DNA of 64,000 nt, taken from Natrinema sp. HArc-T2. Lineage in GTDB: Archaea > Halobacteriota > Halobacteria > Halobacteriales > Natrialbaceae. Of this stretch, positions 36,093 through 44,981 are shown piece after piece. The notes under the pieces were generated by a model. The model worked only from the letters and a program-made list of their open reading frames with translations, made no database searches and was not told where the DNA came from. The translations under genes and the position numbers were made by a program. The stretch lies in NCBI RefSeq assembly GCF_041821085.1, contig NZ_JBGUAZ010000003.1, positions 186,001 to 250,000 of the forward strand, written 5' to 3'. Every line of letters begins with the position of its first letter. Position 1 is the first letter of the stretch.

Positions 36093-37334
36093 TTAGCAGA
36101 AGTTCTGTGTGGCGTACACTTTGCCGTCGTCAGTGACGTAGACGCCGATACCCTCGTTTTCCCACTGCGACGCGAGGATGTTCTCTCTGTGACCCGGCGA
36201 GTTCATCCACTGGGTGACGATCGCATTTGCGAGTTCGGTTTCGGTGGTGTATGTGTCGGTTCCACCATCGGTTCGAACGGGTGTGTCGTACCACGTCTGC
36301 GCGATGTTCTCGCCGCCAGTGTAGTACGTGTTGCCGCTGCCATCGACACGGCACGTGTATCCCGCGTCGGCGTACCGGTCGCCGAAGGTATCTCCTTCAG
36401 GGCTCGTGTGTGAGAAGTACCCTCTCTCGGCCATGTCCCGGCTGTGCTCGCGTGCGATGTCACGGAGTTCCGTGTCGAACGCCAGTTCGTTCAGACCACG
36501 CGCGGCGCGTTCGTCATTGACGGCCTCGTGGATGCTGCGTTCGACGGCGGCGCGGTCGAAGCCGTCGGTTGTCTCGTCAGTCGAGGATTCAGTCTGACCG
36601 CTGTCCTGGTCGTCCGTCGTGGTGTCTCCGTCGGTTTCCTCGCCAGTCGAGGATTCAGTCTGACCGCTGTCCTGGTCGTCCGTCGCGGTGTCTCCGTCGG
36701 TTTCCTCGCCAGTCGAGGGTTCGGTCTGATCGCTGTCCTGATTGTCCGTCGTGGTGTCTTCGTCGGTTCCGTCGTCGGTCTCGGACCCATCAGTCTCACT
36801 CGAGTCGGTTGTGTCACCAGCATCGGAACCAGAATCGGTGTCAGCCGAATCGGTCGTGTCAGTTGTCTCTGACTCGTCACTGTCGGACGACCCATCGGTC
36901 GTGTCGCTCGTCTCTTCAGTCTGCTCGACAGTATCGTCGGTACCGCTGTCGTCCGTCGTCGTCTCGGTGTCAGAGTCACCGTCCCAGACAGACCCATCCG
37001 ATCCCGTTTCCGATGGCTCGTCAGTATCGTCAGCGCCCTGGTCGTGGCCAGGACAGTCGGAGAGGCTGTCGGGGACCGACAGGCCATATGTCGTGAAAAT
37101 ATCGGCCAGCCACGTCTCGAGCGGGGAACAGGAGTCGGCCTGGTTCTGCTGGAACAGCGCAGGTATCGTATTGCTACTCGTCGTCGTGGCATCGGTTACA
37201 GTCGCGATCTCGGTCTCTGTCGTGTCTGTTGCCGTGGCGGGTGGTGCAGTCGCTGCAACCCCCGTCCCGGCCATACTCACCACGAGCACCGCAACGATGG
37301 TGAGGGTAATACCCAGTCTTGCTAATCTACTCAT
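36093..37334 (-). CDS. Secreted CAP-domain protein with long acidic Thr/Asp repeat linker
   Basis: A 413-residue exported protein. The N-terminal Sec signal (LARLGITLTIVAVLVVSMAG) ends at about residue 28. A Cys-containing segment is followed by roughly 160 residues composed of T, D, S, E and G, including three 22-residue repeats built on DDQDSGQTESSTGEETDG. The CAP domain occupies the last 150 residues (HEAVNDERAARGLNELAFD, HSRDMAERGYFSHTSPEGD, GGENIAQTW, WMNSPGHRENIL) and ends GIGVYVTDDGKVYATQNFC. The linker probably spans the S-layer and may be O-glycosylated. ATG 37334 is preferred over the GTG at 37340. Paralogue: 31803-32546. Confidence 0.88.
   Translation of the reverse strand: MSRLARLGITLTIVAVLVVSMAGTGVAATAPPATATDTTETEIATVTDATTTSSNTIPALFQQNQADSCSPLETWLADIFTTYGLSVPDSLSDCPGHDQGADDTDEPSETGSDGSVWDGDSDTETTTDDSGTDDTVEQTEETSDTTDGSSDSDESETTDTTDSADTDSGSDAGDTTDSSETDGSETDDGTDEDTTTDNQDSDQTEPSTGEETDGDTATDDQDSGQTESSTGEETDGDTTTDDQDSGQTESSTDETTDGFDRAAVERSIHEAVNDERAARGLNELAFDTELRDIAREHSRDMAERGYFSHTSPEGDTFGDRYADAGYTCRVDGSGNTYYTGGENIAQTWYDTPVRTDGGTDTYTTETELANAIVTQWMNSPGHRENILASQWENEGIGVYVTDDGKVYATQNFC
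36586..36783. repeat. 66-bp coding minisatellite, three copies
   Basis: Three tandem 66-bp units start at 36586, 36652 and 36718. The first two differ by about one base; the third is more diverged. They encode 22-residue acidic repeats in the CAP-protein linker, so unit number could vary without frameshift. Confidence 0.85.
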
Positions 37335-37520
37335 CAGCACGTAAAACGAGAAAATAAGTTGTAATGAACTGTCTCCTGTACCTGTTCAGTCTTTAGGTCT
37401 GAACAAAGAGTACGGTATAGAGACACACGGAATCCTGTCAGTAATTGTTCGGTCGTGTCTCGCCGTTGCCGGCGATGATCGTGTGATCGGTCTTCGTGAC
37501 CGACACGGGCGTTCGTATAC

Positions 37521-38445: not shown

Positions 38446-39999
38446 TTACGCGCCGGCCCAGACGTTCGTCGAGGAGACGGACGTGAACTGGACGTTCTCG
38501 TTCTCTTGCATAGTGAGCTGCGAGCTGCCGGCACTTCCACCGTTCTCGGCGACTGCGACGGAGGTGTGCTGCTCGTTCAGATTCTCCTGCGTAATGAACT
38601 GGTACTGTGCAATCGCCGCGGTCGCATCCTGATCGATGTCGTTCGTCTGCGTGGCGTTAGCGGCGTAATCGTACGACATGCCGGGGGTAGCAGTACCCGA
38701 GTTGCCGTCGAGCGTGACTGTCGTACTCGAGGTTCGAGAGATGTCTTCAGAGGTGTAGCCTGGACTCGCGTAGACGTTCAGCGCGTTCGCGTAGCCGATC
38801 TGGACGTTGTAGTTCTGCTGGTACGCCAGCTGGACGGCGGTCGCCTCACTTCCGTTCTGTGCGATGGCCATCGCGCTGTTTTGCAGATTGATGTTCCGCT
38901 GTTCGACGCTCTGTTCTTGAGCAACGCCGGCGGTCGCGGTCTGCTCGCCGCCGTCCTTGCTCTTCTTGTCGGGCTTGGCCAGATCGGTTTCAGTCGAGAG
39001 GACGCCCTCGCTGACGCCGCCCGCAGTTGCGACGTTCATTCCGGCGGTGGACGCCAGCACGTTCGATGCGCTGGCCTCGCCGATCTGCTGGTTGAGGTTG
39101 CTCTGGTCAGTGAACTGGACTGCTGTCGCAGTACTGTTCTCGCCAACCGCGATAGCGACGGCGCCACGCTGTTCGTTGAGGTTCGCCTGGTCGACATCCT
39201 GTTGTTGCGTGACGAGTGCCTCAGCGCTCTGTCCCGTGGATAGACCGCTATCGCCAGACTTGTCCTTCTTGTGACCGAATTGACCGTCACCGAGGTAGAC
39301 GTTGGACGCGTTGGCGACCCCTTGCTGCAGGTTCTCGTTGCGCTGGTACGACTGCTGGACTGCGGTCGCGTCGCTGTCGTTGACGGCCATGGCGAACGCA
39401 GTGCTCTGGTTGTTGTAGTTCACCTGCCCGACGTCCTGTGACTGATCTACAGCTGCGAGGGCCTCCTGAGTGATCGTCTCGTCATCACCCTTCTTGTCTT
39501 TGACGCCCCAGCCGTCGAATTGCTGGTCACCACTGTTGCCAATGATTATATTGACGCTACCGACGTTGTCGAACTGCGTTTTTTCGCTCCCCAGGATATT
39601 CTCGGCAGTGGCTGAACCGCGCTGCTCGTTGTCGTTGTACTGGTTCGCCTCTTGGATGGCGGTCGCTTCGCCACCATCGATCGAAACGGACACGGCAGAG
39701 CCCTGCTCGTTGATATTGACCTGATCGACATCCTGGTACTGGATGACGTCAGCCGCGGACTCGGCTGAATCGCCCGCGTGCGTATCAACGTATTCTTCGA
39801 GCGATTGGTTACTGAGATCAGCACCGAAGACCAGATACAGCTCCTCGCCGTTCTCGAGCGTGTATACTGGTCTGTCAGTGGAGTCGTTGTTGCTGCCTGC
39901 GGTGGCTGCCGGGACACCAGCTCCCATCATCGCCAAGGCTACCATACAGGCCATAAGGACTGTCGTAGCTCGTGACCGTCTTGTCGTATTGCTTGTCAT
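38446..39999 (-). CDS. Exported curlin-like Gln/Asn-ladder protein (five modules)
   Basis: A 517-residue exported protein with an N-terminal signal (about residues 10-34). Five modules of some 53 residues lie at about 84-136, 182-236, 261-315, 357-411 and 461-515. Each has two half-repeats with the ladder Q-x-N-x-N-x-Q: first halves at Gln93, 192, 271, 367, 471 (e.g. QVNINEQ) and second halves at Gln120, 219, 299, 394, 498, always 27-28 residues later. Between them are small alternating residues (SAVSVS, AVAIAV) and an ATAVQ strand. Linkers between modules contain Gly/Lys/Asp. Regular Q/N ladders are the hallmark of curlin-type amyloid and beta-solenoid folds. No family is known to me; a surface fibre is inferred. 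Confidence 0.8.
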   Translation of the reverse strand: MTSNTTRRSRATTVLMACMVALAMMGAGVPAATAGSNNDSTDRPVYTLENGEELYLVFGADLSNQSLEEYVDTHAGDSAESAADVIQYQDVDQVNINEQGSAVSVSIDGGEATAIQEANQYNDNEQRGSATAENILGSEKTQFDNVGSVNIIIGNSGDQQFDGWGVKDKKGDDETITQEALAAVDQSQDVGQVNYNNQSTAFAMAVNDSDATAVQQSYQRNENLQQGVANASNVYLGDGQFGHKKDKSGDSGLSTGQSAEALVTQQQDVDQANLNEQRGAVAIAVGENSTATAVQFTDQSNLNQQIGEASASNVLASTAGMNVATAGGVSEGVLSTETDLAKPDKKSKDGGEQTATAGVAQEQSVEQRNINLQNSAMAIAQNGSEATAVQLAYQQNYNVQIGYANALNVYASPGYTSEDISRTSSTTVTLDGNSGTATPGMSYDYAANATQTNDIDQDATAAIAQYQFITQENLNEQHTSVAVAENGGSAGSSQLTMQENENVQFTSVSSTNVWAGA

Positions 40000-40618
40000 G
40001 GTTCGTTTGATCTATGCCGTGAGAGTCCTTTGTTTCCGCATCTCCACGGCGCAAACCACCCTTCCCGGATGATAGACATTGTTATTGATCAGTTGTCGAT
40101 GGGATGAAGGAGTCTACTCAACCGAAGACAGGTGCTAAAGACCGAAACCAAGACCTTCGGACCCGAATAGATACTGAGTCATGTTTCCACATTACAAGAT
40201 CCAATAATGGCGCTCAGACCGTTTCAGCAGGAAATTCTGACTGTTTCAATAATAGAGCTCAGTTAGGAAGGATGAAAGGCGGTATTTCGGTACAAAACGG
40301 GGGCGGGACGACAAGAGAAAACAGTGAGGAAATATCAAAATAGATCCCAAATATCAACGACAAGTGCTCTCCCGCAGGTGATGTATGCCTATCCTCCTCA
40401 GCGTAGTCCCGATTTCGTATCTAGCAATCCCATGATTCGGCTTGAAACCGTTTCTGGGGTTGAAATAGGTCTCCGTACTGTCCACCGACTGGGCAACGCG
40501 CCGCGAACGGGAGGCTAATAGGAGCTGGCGTGGCTCATCTGTGCAGAGCCGTGGCTCTGCGATGGCGGCCAGCCCTGTTCCACAGGCTCCCGCTTCGCTG
40601 ACGCGTGCCTAATAAACT
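40000..40618. other. Gene-free intergenic region between two curlin-like genes
   Basis: These 619 bp separate divergent curlin-like genes and are less GC-rich than the flanks. A 79-codon frame at 40104-40343 has no signal, family or normal codon bias and is not called. A near-perfect inverted repeat, GCAGAGCC-GT-GGCTCTGC at 40543-40560, lies 59 bp before the ATG at 40619 and may be an operator or RNA hairpin. Promoters for both neighbours must lie here, but no strong TATA element stands out. Confidence 0.5.
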
Positions 40619-41152
40619 ATGAAACGAACAATCACAATCGCACTGGCGGTAGCGATGATCGCGAGCATCGCTCTCGCTGGAACGGCAGCAGCTGGTGGCG
40701 CAGATCACGGTGACCATGGCGGTGCCGGAGATATCTCGCTTCAGGATGCAGACACACGCGTTGTCCAGGACAGTCAAGGACGACAGGTCAACATAAATGA
40801 CCAAGACGCAGCGGTCTACCAGAACGGCACTGCGTCCGTCGAAGGTGGTGACGGTGGTGCCGTCACTGTCTCCGTCAGCGAGAATGCGACGGGAGACGTT
40901 TTCGCACCTGGCAGTGGATCTCGCAACGCCGAGACTCAGGGTCAGAGTGTGCCCGGCATGCCCTTCGATGGTCAGGCCACAGAGAACGGTACGACGATTA
41001 CCGTTGATAGCAGCGGCGGCTCGGTTGACAACGCCTCGGCCACCGTGAACAACGACGCTCAAGTGATCCAGCGTGCCGACCAGAGTAACAACAAGGAGCA
41101 GGTCGCTAACGCTGCAGCAGCTAACCTCCGCAACCTGGCCATCTTCGGCTAA
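40619..41152 (+). CDS. Exported small curlin-like protein (one split module)
   Basis: A 177-residue secreted protein with a Sec signal (ITIALAVAMIASIALAG, cleavage near Ala24-Gly26) and a short His/Gly segment. QVNINDQ at residues 56-62 matches the first half-repeat of the 517-residue neighbour. VIQRADQSNNKEQVANAAA at 149-167 matches the second half, e.g. AVQFTDQSNLNQQIGEASA there. The two halves are separated by a Gly/Ser/Asn-rich insert with several N-glycosylation sequons (NGT, NAT, NGT, NAS). The C-terminal part also aligns without gaps to residues 246-290 of the protein at 42302-43231. A minor subunit or nucleator role is possible but speculative. Confidence 0.78.
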   Translation: MKRTITIALAVAMIASIALAGTAAAGGADHGDHGGAGDISLQDADTRVVQDSQGRQVNINDQDAAVYQNGTASVEGGDGGAVTVSVSENATGDVFAPGSGSRNAETQGQSVPGMPFDGQATENGTTITVDSSGGSVDNASATVNNDAQVIQRADQSNNKEQVANAAAANLRNLAIFG

Positions 41153-42301
41153 GTTCGTACAATTAAATCTTTTTTGGCGTAGACGTAGAGCCTAGCTGCA
41201 AAGCTCCGCGTAATGGCTGATCCGGCTGCACTCGGTAGTTTCATGAATTTTTATGTTCTGGCTTACAAGGTCGGCTCACTGTGGACAAAAGGACGGTTAT
41301 ATTTCTGTGGGTCGCAGACCGCAGGGAGCATACCCTCGCTCAGACGGTTATGGCTGCGACTCGGCAGACATAGTACACGCCTGCTCCCGCTCACCCAGCG
41401 TCAGTCTCCCAGCAGTAGCCGCTGAGCCGCTGGAGGATGTGCTTGAACGCTCCCGATTATGTCGGTACTAGGCTGATCGACAAACGAAATGATCCAAGAG
41501 CACTCAGTGGAACTCTAGCAGATTTCCATGGCCGCGTCCACGACATACGATCTAGTGATCGACAATGGAGACAAGGAAGGCCTTGCTGGGGTAACCTCTC
41601 CGAGGCTGTTCTTGGCTACTATAAGCCGATGTCTCTCTGGTGATTTACGTGTAGAGAAGATCCGATAGAAAGTTTCCTAGTATATCTGAATTTTTACTCT
41701 TGTCCTCTATTCTTGCCGAGAGTGGTATGCGTACATTTTAAACACAGGTAGCGCTACCACGGCTCCGCATCACCGTGATATCTATCGTCTCATGAGGAGT
41801 TCAGCTGTTGCGCTGATCAAAGGCAAGGAGGACACGGCCATGTTTCGACCGGACACCGCCACGACCGATGTGGAGAGTGCAACCACGAACGAGGCAGGCT
41901 TTGGTTCAGTCATCTCTCTTGTACACGGTCCCTCCTGTGTACAGCGGAGGAGAGGGTACTATCAGGACGGCAAGCTAATCTGAACACCATACCTTCCACC
42001 GAGTTTCTTACCCCCGCGGTGGTGGGCATGGAACTGCCTGTCGTGACAGGAAACAGCCTGGGTTCTCCTGATGAAACCCCTTACACGATTAGCGTACTTG
42101 AGCGCTACAAGCTGGAATCCTTGTAGAGGGTGGCTGTAGAGTTATCGTCTCGCGTATCCCTGCCCTGTGGGATGCGGTTTTCACTTAAAGCTACGGAACT
42201 TTTCTATTGAACCTGAAATCGGGAGAAACGATGATTTCTGTTTAATAACCTCTCTGTAAGTCTGTAACTCACCCGCCATCAGGACGGGTGGTTTACGAAC
42301 A
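41153..42301. other. Lower-GC gene-free region with possible transposon relic
   Basis: This 1149-bp stretch is clearly lower in GC than the rest and has no gene I can support. Short frames at 41213-41643 and 41792-41983 lack haloarchaeal codon bias. A frame through 42029-42127 ends VLERYKLESL and may be the end of a decayed reading frame. A hairpin CACCCG/CGGGTG at 42270-42290 sits 11 bp before the next ATG and resembles ends of haloarchaeal IS200/IS605-type elements. I read the region as eroded mobile DNA, without proof. Confidence 0.4.
41170..41175 (+). terminator. U-tract terminator after the small curlin-like gene
   Basis: TTTTTT (41170-41175) in an AT-rich context 18 bp after the stop codon is a likely archaeal transcription terminator. 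Confidence 0.45.
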
Positions 42302-43231
42302 ATGCGAAAGGACGCTAAACAAGAGGACGAGAAGAGAATTGATATCAATCGTCGCGACGTGATGAAGGCGGCTGGTGGGGCTGTCGTCGCAGGAGGAACA
42401 CTTGGGGCAGTAAGTGGAACAGCAGTAGCGCAAACTTCGTGTTTGACCGACTGTCAAACTATAAATATCGAAACGTTCAACAGCGCAAATTACAGAACGT
42501 ACAATCTTGATTGTGGTGGGTCGTTCACGGTCAACGACGCCGGAAAAGGATGCATCTCGATATCGACGGGCAGCAACACGTGCATGAAGAGGGTACGGCT
42601 AAAGGGTGGGCAGGAAGAGGTAACGTTTACTTGCCCGGAGGTAAATACCCAGAGTGAGTTTTGCCTGCCTGTACGCGAACAGGGCGGCCGCCCCGACATC
42701 AGCAACGCGACGTTCGAGGCCTGTTGTCTGAGTTCGACATTCGTAAACAGCTTCGACCTGTCTTGCTCGGGCGTCTCGTTCTCGGCGTGTGCGTGTCCGG
42801 GGTCGACCGCCAGTCTGACCGTGGCGGACGCAACTGGAACGCTTGTGAACCAGACCTACACGGCGGACTGTGAAGGGGTCGTCAGCGGGAGTGAATCGTT
42901 CGACGCAACCGGAGCGACGACCGCGACACTCACGCTCCGCGGAGAGGCGTTTACCGAAGGGCCGATAAATTGTGGTGACGGCGGTGACGGCGGTGGCGAT
43001 GGTAAACCTGGTGAGATCGGCGAGAACGTCGAAGTGAACGTCGATGCAAGCGGTGGCTCGGCTGCGGAGTCCACTGCCTCTGCGGAGAACGACGTAACAG
43101 TCAACCAGGCGGCTAATCAGAGAAATGACGGGCGTCAAGCCACTACTACTGAAGCGAAGGCTACTGAGACGACCTCGACCGCTGGCTCGCGGACGCTCAA
43201 AGACTACCTCAACGGCCTCCTCTTCGACTGA
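42302..43231 (+). CDS. Tat-exported Cys-rich protein with curlin-like C-terminal module
   Basis: A 309-residue protein with a twin-arginine signal (RRDVMKAAGG, cleavage near AVAQ at residue 44). Residues 45-225 form a domain with 14 cysteines, including CC at 141-142 and CACP at 163-166, which is remarkable in haloarchaea and suggests disulfide bonds. After a Gly/Asp linker, residues 246-290 align without gaps to the C-terminus of the 177-residue neighbour: VDASGGS against VDSSGGS, then VNQAANQRNDGRQ against VIQRADQSNNKEQ. A capping or adhesive subunit of the same fibre is plausible. No family is known to me. ATG 42302 follows a hairpin by 11 bp. Confidence 0.75.
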   Translation: MRKDAKQEDEKRIDINRRDVMKAAGGAVVAGGTLGAVSGTAVAQTSCLTDCQTINIETFNSANYRTYNLDCGGSFTVNDAGKGCISISTGSNTCMKRVRLKGGQEEVTFTCPEVNTQSEFCLPVREQGGRPDISNATFEACCLSSTFVNSFDLSCSGVSFSACACPGSTASLTVADATGTLVNQTYTADCEGVVSGSESFDATGATTATLTLRGEAFTEGPINCGDGGDGGGDGKPGEIGENVEVNVDASGGSAAESTASAENDVTVNQAANQRNDGRQATTTEAKATETTSTAGSRTLKDYLNGLLFD

Positions 43232-43332: not shown

Positions 43333-44772
43333 TCATCCGCGATAAATAGCCGTTTCAGCCTGCCGGATCACCTCGCGAACTGTCAGACCGCTCTCTCGAG
43401 CCACCTCCTTCGCGTCGTCGTACTCCGCACTCACGTCGTACATCTCTCCTGCCGAATCACTCGCGATTTTCACGGTCACGTCGTACTCGTTGCCGTCGAG
43501 CTCGAGCGTCACCGTCTCGAACTCCCGATTCGCGATCCATCGGTGGGTCGCCCCTGCATCACGCACACCCAATGTCCCGGTCTCCTCGGCCAGCGCTCGA
43601 GCAACCCGCTTTCGGTCTTCGGGTTTGCAGATGACCTTCACGAGGTGGCCGGGGCGAGACTTCTTCATGGTCGCAGGCATGATCGACACGTCTCGCGCGC
43701 CCGCGTCTGCGAGCGTCTCCTGGAGGCCGCCCAGCACTTCGGGCGTCGCGTCGTCGAGGTTGGTCTCGAGAACCGCGATATCGTCTTTGACGAGCCCGCC
43801 GCGGTCCTCGCCCGTGCCGACCAGCACTCGAAGCACGTTCGGGTGTGGATCGAGGTCATAGCCACCCGCGCCGTAGCCGGATTCCTCGAGCGAGAGCGTC
43901 GGCAGCGTTTCGATACCGTCGGCAATGTGGCCCAGAATCGCTGCACCGGTCGGCGTCAGCAGTTCGGCGTCGACCGGGCCACCGCGGAGCGACCAGTCGG
44001 AACGCTCGGCGATTTCGACGACCGCCGGCGCGGGAATGGGATACTCGCCGTGGCTCATCGACACCGTGCCGTCGCCGGTCGAAATCGGCGTGGTAACGAT
44101 TCGATCGGGCTCGAGATCGTGGACCAGCGCCGCGGCCCCGACGACATCCGCGATCGCGTCGTCGGCGCCGACCTCGTGGAAGTGAATCGACTCGAGATCC
44201 TCGCCATGGACGCCCGCCTCGGCTTCGCCGAGGAGTTCGAAGATCGCGAGCGCGTCGCGTTCGATCGCCGGCTCGAGGTCCATCTCGGTGACGATCTCGC
44301 AGACCTCGCGATAGCTGCGGTGGGGGCCGTGTCCTTCGGCGTGGACGCCGTCGTGGCTGTGGTCGTGGTCGTGGCTGTGATCGTGACTGTGGCCGTGGTC
44401 GTGCTCATGGCTATCGTCGTCGCCGTGATCGTGACTCGAGTCACCATGAGCGTGGTCGTGGTCCGCTTCCTCGTGGTCGTGGTCCGCTTCCTCGTGGTCG
44501 TGGTCCGCTTCCTCGTGGTCGTGGTCCGCTTCCTCGTGGTCGTGGTCCGCTTCCTCGTGGTCGTGGCCGTCGTGTAGGTCGTCGTCCGCCAGGAGCACGT
44601 CGACCGACGTCGCGGCGATGCCGCTTTTGTCGACGGTGTCGATCTCATATTCGACCTCGAGGGCGTCAGTCACGGACTCCAAGACAGCAGGATCGGCACC
44701 GGCGTCGAGGAGGGCGGCGAGGATCATATCACCGCTCGCACCCATCCGGCCATCGAAAGCGAGAACGCGCAT
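43333..44772 (-). CDS. larC: LarC-type nickel insertion protein with His-rich insert
   Basis: LarC inserts nickel into the pincer cofactor (pyridinium-3,5-bisthiocarboxylic acid mononucleotide) used by lactate racemase-type enzymes. The family start AFDGRMGASGDMILAALLDAG, HFHEVGADDAIADVVGAA, the TPTGAAIL turn and METNLDD-like VLETNLDDATPEVLG are present. Residues 68-147 form a His/Asp/Glu-rich insert with five EEADHDH repeats, likely a nickel store. The 479-residue length exceeds the usual 400 because of it. ATG 44772 is preferred with GGAG seven bases upstream; ATG 44778 is possible. larA, larB and larE are not in the window. Confidence 0.92.
   Translation of the reverse strand: MRVLAFDGRMGASGDMILAALLDAGADPAVLESVTDALEVEYEIDTVDKSGIAATSVDVLLADDDLHDGHDHEEADHDHEEADHDHEEADHDHEEADHDHEEADHDHAHGDSSHDHGDDDSHEHDHGHSHDHSHDHDHSHDGVHAEGHGPHRSYREVCEIVTEMDLEPAIERDALAIFELLGEAEAGVHGEDLESIHFHEVGADDAIADVVGAAALVHDLEPDRIVTTPISTGDGTVSMSHGEYPIPAPAVVEIAERSDWSLRGGPVDAELLTPTGAAILGHIADGIETLPTLSLEESGYGAGGYDLDPHPNVLRVLVGTGEDRGGLVKDDIAVLETNLDDATPEVLGGLQETLADAGARDVSIMPATMKKSRPGHLVKVICKPEDRKRVARALAEETGTLGVRDAGATHRWIANREFETVTLELDGNEYDVTVKIASDSAGEMYDVSAEYDDAKEVARESGLTVREVIRQAETAIYRG
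44461..44565. repeat. larC: Perfect 21-bp minisatellite, five copies, inside larC
   Basis: The unit GTCCGCTTCCTCGTGGTCGT plus G is repeated five times without change. On the minus strand it encodes EEADHDH. Identity at third codon positions indicates recent expansion or ongoing slippage. Confidence 0.92.
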
Positions 44773-44981
44773 GTTCATACTCCGGATGGGAAGCGAGAAA
44801 AAGCCATCTCTCCGGCCGGTCGGCACGCTGTCGGTAGGGCCAAAACCCACCGAGGCCGGTACATCTTTGTAGCGTCCGGTCCCAAGTATCTATGGTACAG
44901 ACTAGCACATAGATGTGGGGTAACACAAAACCTATCCGATCACGTGTCGGAGACATTAACATCGCCGTCCATCCCTAAACC

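Follow-up and report, generated by a model that had tools for sequence, protein, structure and literature searches.

Exported glutamine/asparagine-ladder proteins with their own conserved locus in Natrinema and related haloarchaea

We describe a family of exported repeat proteins encoded in a 64,000-nucleotide stretch of the genome of Natrinema sp. HArc-T2 (contig NZ_JBGUAZ010000003.1, positions 186,001 to 250,000; hereafter the window, numbered from its first letter). The family, whose repeats carry regularly spaced Gln and Asn residues (amide ladders), is real, is conserved across genera, and has its own locus. An initial annotation of the window had described three neighboring genes as exported, curlin-like subunits of a haloarchaeal surface fiber. 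The three open reading frames and the ten half-repeat positions that it listed are confirmed from the sequence, far above shuffled expectation, and the description of a cluster of exported ladder proteins is supported. On the basis of sequence patterns and of analogy, we propose, with a probability of roughly 0.5, that these proteins are a lineage-specific haloarchaeal exported set that would stack through Gln/Asn/Ala zippers into a surface or matrix assembly. In family scans the three window proteins match no Pfam or NCBIfam family, save for a twin-arginine translocation (Tat) signal on one of them. We found no description of the ladder-protein family, and the literature on haloarchaeal curlin, Natrinema amyloid, and archaeal prion-like proteins is silent about it.

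A five-module ladder protein

The largest of the three proteins (517 residues) consists of a signal peptide, an N-terminal segment (VYTLENGEELYLVFGAD...), and five modules of ~50 residues with variable linkers between them. The motif QxNxNxQ occurs at residues 93/120, 192/219, 271/299, 367/394, and 471/498, which gives ten half-repeats in five modules. Shuffling the mature protein 5000 times yields a mean of 0.04 occurrences and a maximum of 2. The longer form Qx3QxNxNxQ is present in 10 out of 10 half-repeats (0.003 expected). The features of the large gene are as follows; all modules were placed by motif positions and module alignment.

38446..39999, minus strand: large ladder protein, 517 residues (open reading frame, motif count, and family conservation)
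39898..39999, minus strand: signal peptide, residues 1-34 (MTSNTTRRSRATTVLMACMVALAMMGAGVPAATA), from the sequence, with the cleavage site set by inspection; general secretory (Sec) or Tat route
39598..39747, minus strand: module 1, residues 85-134
39301..39450, minus strand: module 2, residues 184-233
39061..39213, minus strand: module 3, residues 263-313
38776..38925, minus strand: module 4, residues 359-408
38464..38613, minus strand: module 5, residues 463-512

The ladder residues are strictly conserved. Across 12 relatives with 38-80% identity, the ladder Gln and Asn together with alternating Ala make up the majority of invariant residues. Among 270 modules from 57 large proteins, half A follows the pattern V.Q.Q.V.Q.N.N.Q..A.A.A and half B the pattern A.A.Q...Q.N.N.Q.G.A.A.N, the two being joined by a short turn of Gly, Asn, Asp, or Ser. 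The two faces of the module differ in composition: The conserved face is 51% Gln/Asn and 29% Ala, with 0.6% charged residues, and on the opposite face 43% of residues are hydrophobic and 21% acidic. The former is what would be expected of a buried, uncharged zipper face. Five modules are detected in 40 of the 57 proteins and four in 16.

The large protein is present in all 29 Natrinema genomes searched (HArc-T2 and 28 others of the genus), with 80% identity in N. salsiterrestre and N. ejinorense. Among Halobacteria as a whole it occurs in 58 of 292 genomes and in 22 of the 77 genera sampled, nearly all of them in one family. Plasmid records add Haladaptatus, Halomicrococcus, Natronorubrum, Natrononativus, and Haloterrigena, where it is mostly annotated as hypothetical. 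One divergent branch (loci L066, L067, L119, L120, and L121) begins in a Tat-like manner (KRRGYLKG or similar) where the Natrinema protein has its signal peptide; our filter showed no short ladder gene adjoining the large gene there.

Locus architecture and short ladder proteins

The large gene occupies a fixed slot, in the order radB, a 277-residue gene, the large and short ladder genes, larC, and cdc48. The island between the 277-residue gene and larC-cdc48 is mostly composed of the ladder family alone: The large gene occupies one strand, and the opposite strand carries one to four short secreted genes. In 38 out of 56 loci the large gene has one or more divergent secreted ladder genes within 6.5 kb, compared with 2 out of 56 on its other side; the filter was conservative, and the count of 38 is a lower bound. 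The initial annotation had looked to co-occurrence of its three genes elsewhere, and for the large gene and divergent short ladder genes this is what we see.

In the window, the first short gene encodes a protein of 177 residues, listed here together with the promoter-region box upstream of it.

40444..40469, plus strand: promoter-region box GAAACCGTTTCTGGGGTTGAAATAGG (alignment and genome scan; single match in the window)
40619..41152, plus strand: short ladder protein, 177 residues, with a signal peptide and one divergent module whose halves lie ~70-80 residues apart
40760..40828, plus strand: half A of the 177-residue protein, around QVNINDQ (motif and profile match)
41057..41125, plus strand: half B of the 177-residue protein (QRADQSNNKEQVANAAA) (motif and BLASTP match to the 309-residue protein)

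QVNINDQ stands at residue 56 and ADQSNNKEQ near the C terminus. We rate the case for a shared module in this protein as moderate, since half A matches the module profile with E = 0.005 and the match is stronger through relatives; the protein is a divergent one-module partner of the large one. It has one clear ortholog, which adjoins the large gene in genome G002 (E = 2e-31). Searched with the same profile, short proteins of four loci contain complete modules (E = 1e-10 to 1e-13), one of them in Natrinema (L044); other short proteins score weakly. In a class of ~257-330 residues an inserted domain separates half A from half B, and in some short proteins the halves stand in B-A order, with weak profile scores. 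Since most loci combine the gene for a five-module protein with neighboring genes for one-module proteins, the split into major and minor subunits that the annotation proposed is plausible.

Two other kinds of secreted protein were seen in the islands. One (IDTITFYNDDGGELEQLAQATW...), found near larC in L062-L065, L045, and L050, occurs alone or duplicated within the ladder island and resembles the domain inserted in the ~257-330-residue ladder proteins. In one branch (L055, L056, and L057) the divergent partner upstream of the large gene is a GGDGGDGG-rich Gly-Asp protein and not a ladder protein.

Alignment of the DNA upstream of the short ladder genes reveals a conserved block, GAAACCGTTTnCCGGGTTCAAATGGG. 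In a scan of 29 genomes allowing up to three mismatches, this block was found in nine Natrinema genomes and at the ladder locus only, and its reversed control had no match. The window copy differs from the consensus at more than three bases and was located with a less stringent pattern that has a single match in the window. Immediately upstream of the large gene, ~95-130 nucleotides (window 40000-40130) retain 75-83% nucleotide identity across genera, and an in-frame stop just before the large-gene ATG breaks any N-terminal extension in the window. This conserved DNA is possibly a promoter or a regulatory leader. The intergenic DNA of the island (window 40000-42301) has ~51% G+C, compared with ~60-65% in its surroundings. 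No decayed ladder gene turned up in the 1.15 kb that separate the two short genes, and no other gene is recognizable there. An Rfam scan returned nothing at the gathering score. A promoter and terminator scan used bacterial models and is uninformative for an archaeon.

Further out, window 43333-44850 encodes a LarC-like protein with five tandem His/Asp/Glu-rich units (DHDHEEA), possibly metal binding, and window 36093-37340 a secreted protein that resembles CAP/SCP-domain proteins and has a long repeat linker rich in Thr, Asp, and Ser (DGDTTTDDQDSGQTESSTGEET).

The 309-residue protein

The third protein is the one with the Tat signal (TIGR01409, above the cut-off), which is followed by a Cys-rich region and then by ANQRNDGRQ.

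42302..43231, plus strand: 309-residue Cys-rich protein with Tat signal and C-terminal half-module, an orphan in the second short-gene slot
43094..43171, plus strand: C-terminal half-module of the 309-residue protein (VNQAANQRNDGRQ) (BLASTP match to the 177-residue protein)

The initial annotation had all three proteins sharing one module. This is solid for the large protein, moderate for the 177-residue protein, and weak here: The C terminus matches the 177-residue protein at 15 out of 35 positions (BLASTP E = 1e-4), but the match to the module profile is not significant (E = 19). Nor is its reading as a conserved adhesive subunit supported, since a search of 391 Halobacteria genomes yielded no relative over its full length; weak matches are mostly to the signal region. 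In other Natrinema, however, the second short-gene slot often holds a ladder protein with a domain insertion that in many cases contains Cys. We see the 309-residue protein as an occupant of this slot peculiar to its species and not as a conserved subunit.

Comparison with bacterial functional amyloids

The annotation had called the three proteins curlin-like. The large protein and its partners do share a design with CsgA and CsgB: exported Gln/Asn-ladder repeats, five of them as in Escherichia coli CsgA, with the gene for a smaller partner close by. Curli-like repeats have also been mentioned for one archaeal protein (Dueholm 2012; PMC3521004), so true membership of the curlin family in an archaeon had to be weighed. 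Every sequence test of membership failed, whether by PF07012, CsgG, repeat spacing, profile comparison, or module hidden Markov model (HMM), and we consider membership very improbable. PF07012 has no match in any of 21 genomes, HArc-T2 included (the E. coli control was positive), and none in direct protein scans. CsgG (PF03783) has no match in the HArc-T2 genome, with positive controls, in agreement with the annotation's remark that no csg-type export gene lies nearby. Curlin repeats measure 23 ± 5 residues (PMC10192328), compared with ~50 for the window module, and curlin spacings in the large protein are mostly at or below chance: X6QX10Q occurs twice (5.1 expected), QxGxxNx5Q and NX5QXG do not occur, and QxGxxN occurs twice (0.4 expected), which is marginal as the 95th percentile is also 2. 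An hhalign comparison with CsgA/CsgB gave E = 0.51, although its power is limited, as this kind of comparison likewise failed to pick up the sister short family past the signal peptide. The module HMM, which matched haloarchaeal short proteins, had no match to CsgA/CsgB at E ≤ 100.

By analogy, the architecture of the ladder protein is closer to FapC of Pseudomonas than to curlin. FapC has imperfect repeats with linkers of ~30-260 residues, each repeat making up a single cross-beta layer that conserved Asn/Gln hold together, and a companion, FapB (PMC12392863); imperfect Asn/Gln repeats, variable linkers, and a companion sharing the repeat all recur here. The differences are also clear. The FapC consensus is gasGN-G-N...G.gNqQN, as against Qx3QxNxNxQ in the large protein, and two pattern forms of GNxGxN...G..NxQN have no match in the latter. 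A sequence search of solved structures likewise gave no meaningful match. FapC has three repeats, compared with five modules in the large protein, in which layers would have to be supposed. The fap operon includes fapA, fapD, fapE, and fapF, whereas the ladder island has only ladder-type and other small secreted genes (no Fap-specific profile search was made). Our best guess is that the ladder proteins resemble bacterial functional amyloids in design and are not related to them by sequence.

A model of the fold and of assembly

We suggest that in each module halves A and B would be long beta-strands connected by the short Gly/Asn/Asp/Ser turn, each strand with one Gln/Asn/Ala face and one variable face of hydrophobic and acidic residues. 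In the large protein, each of the five modules would make one layer of a stack, and Gln and Asn side chains at equivalent positions could line up in vertical hydrogen-bond ladders; the A and B sheets would pack via the uncharged Gln/Asn/Ala zipper, and the variable linkers would loop outward. Open edges might then accept further large proteins, or one-module proteins from the divergent genes, to give a surface-attached or matrix fiber. The fiber would also present the domains that some short proteins have inserted between their halves.

AlphaFold2 draws each module of the large protein, at low confidence, as two ~25-residue strands with a turn at the module center. This would also fit an antiparallel beta-hairpin in which the palindromic QNNQ of the two halves pair in register, five hairpins making a sheet, a barrel, or separate tabs. 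In module 1, Gln93, Asn95, Asn97, and Gln99 would face Gln126, Asn124, Asn122, and Gln120 (constant sum 219) around a central Gly-Gly turn, and the centers of the other modules read ND/DS, GENS, NG, and GG. Compared outside the core, however, the halves resemble each other better in direct order (P = 0.05) than in reversed order (P = 0.70; with parity kept, 0.12 and 0.82), which suggests a mild preference for the former. Because of this likeness, the B-A order in some partners (weak as those scores are), and the Fap precedent, stacked beta-arches are favored over antiparallel hairpins; with AlphaFold2 confidence low as well, we regard the hairpin as unlikely.

Several results weigh against a stacked assembly. 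Over four sequences, AlphaFold2 gives the large protein a mean predicted local distance difference test (pLDDT) of 40.5 and a predicted template modeling score of 0.38, both low, and the fold of the 177-residue protein (pLDDT 38.8) is unusable. A Foldseek search of the large-protein model against the Protein Data Bank found nothing significant: As regards the left-handed beta-arch solenoid expected of a curlin, the best hit from this low-confidence query, Pontibacter CsgA (E = 0.12, probability 0.01, template modeling score 0.06), amounts to no match. Covariation between halves A and B shows no clear diagonal, with only ~14 effective sequences, too thin for strand pairing. Some large-gene loci have no detected short ladder gene, and no assembly or secretion gene is found in the locus.

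The modules might instead fold within one chain, as a monomeric or short-oligomer beta-solenoid stalk or adhesin, anchored or S-layer-associated, that does not polymerize. The PGF-CTERM tag (TIGR04126) of haloarchaeal surface proteins, which marks anchoring and not function, ends 4 of the 12 large-protein relatives; the repeat number is nearly fixed at five, unlike the variable number in CsgA (PMC10192328); and assembly genes are lacking nearby. We find such a stalk doubtful, since the Natrinema form, including the window's 517-residue protein, lacks the anchor (C-terminal PGF motif, membrane span, and basic tail), a self-contained stalk would leave the one-module partners from its locus without an evident role, and the conserved uncharged Gln/Asn/Ala face suits edge-to-edge addition. 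That face might also bind a polysaccharide, a mineral, or another regular surface, with proteins that neither stack nor form fibers. A polar face that is flat and regular can bind ligands with a repeat of their own, and the short partners differ widely among species, down to the Gly-Asp-rich replacements in one branch. A face with interleaved Ala and almost no charge or Thr (2.4%) is better suited to close packing, however, and ligand binding seems to us improbable.

We therefore retain stacking through Gln/Asn/Ala zippers as our preferred reading. Its most specific form would be a dedicated, previously unrecognized haloarchaeal functional-amyloid system, with a self-assembling five-module major subunit and with one-module partners behind a locus-specific promoter box, which would have evolved separately from both curli and Fap and whose locus would include no gene dedicated to export or assembly; this we offer tentatively, as a possibility well short of an even chance.

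The biofilm matrix of Haloferax volcanii binds Congo red and thioflavin T, and the proteins behind this amyloid-dye staining, and their genetic basis, were not established in that study (PMC4180959). That matrix is likewise haloarchaeal and extracellular, but it belongs to an organism of another family. For such staining the ladder locus is a compact candidate, with a putative role in biofilms; it is widely conserved in Natrinema and its family, and no Pfam or NCBIfam model covers its proteins. If fibers do form, amide-ladder stacking would have arisen separately in archaea, and it would function close to salt saturation with no dedicated secretion set of the curli or Fap type.

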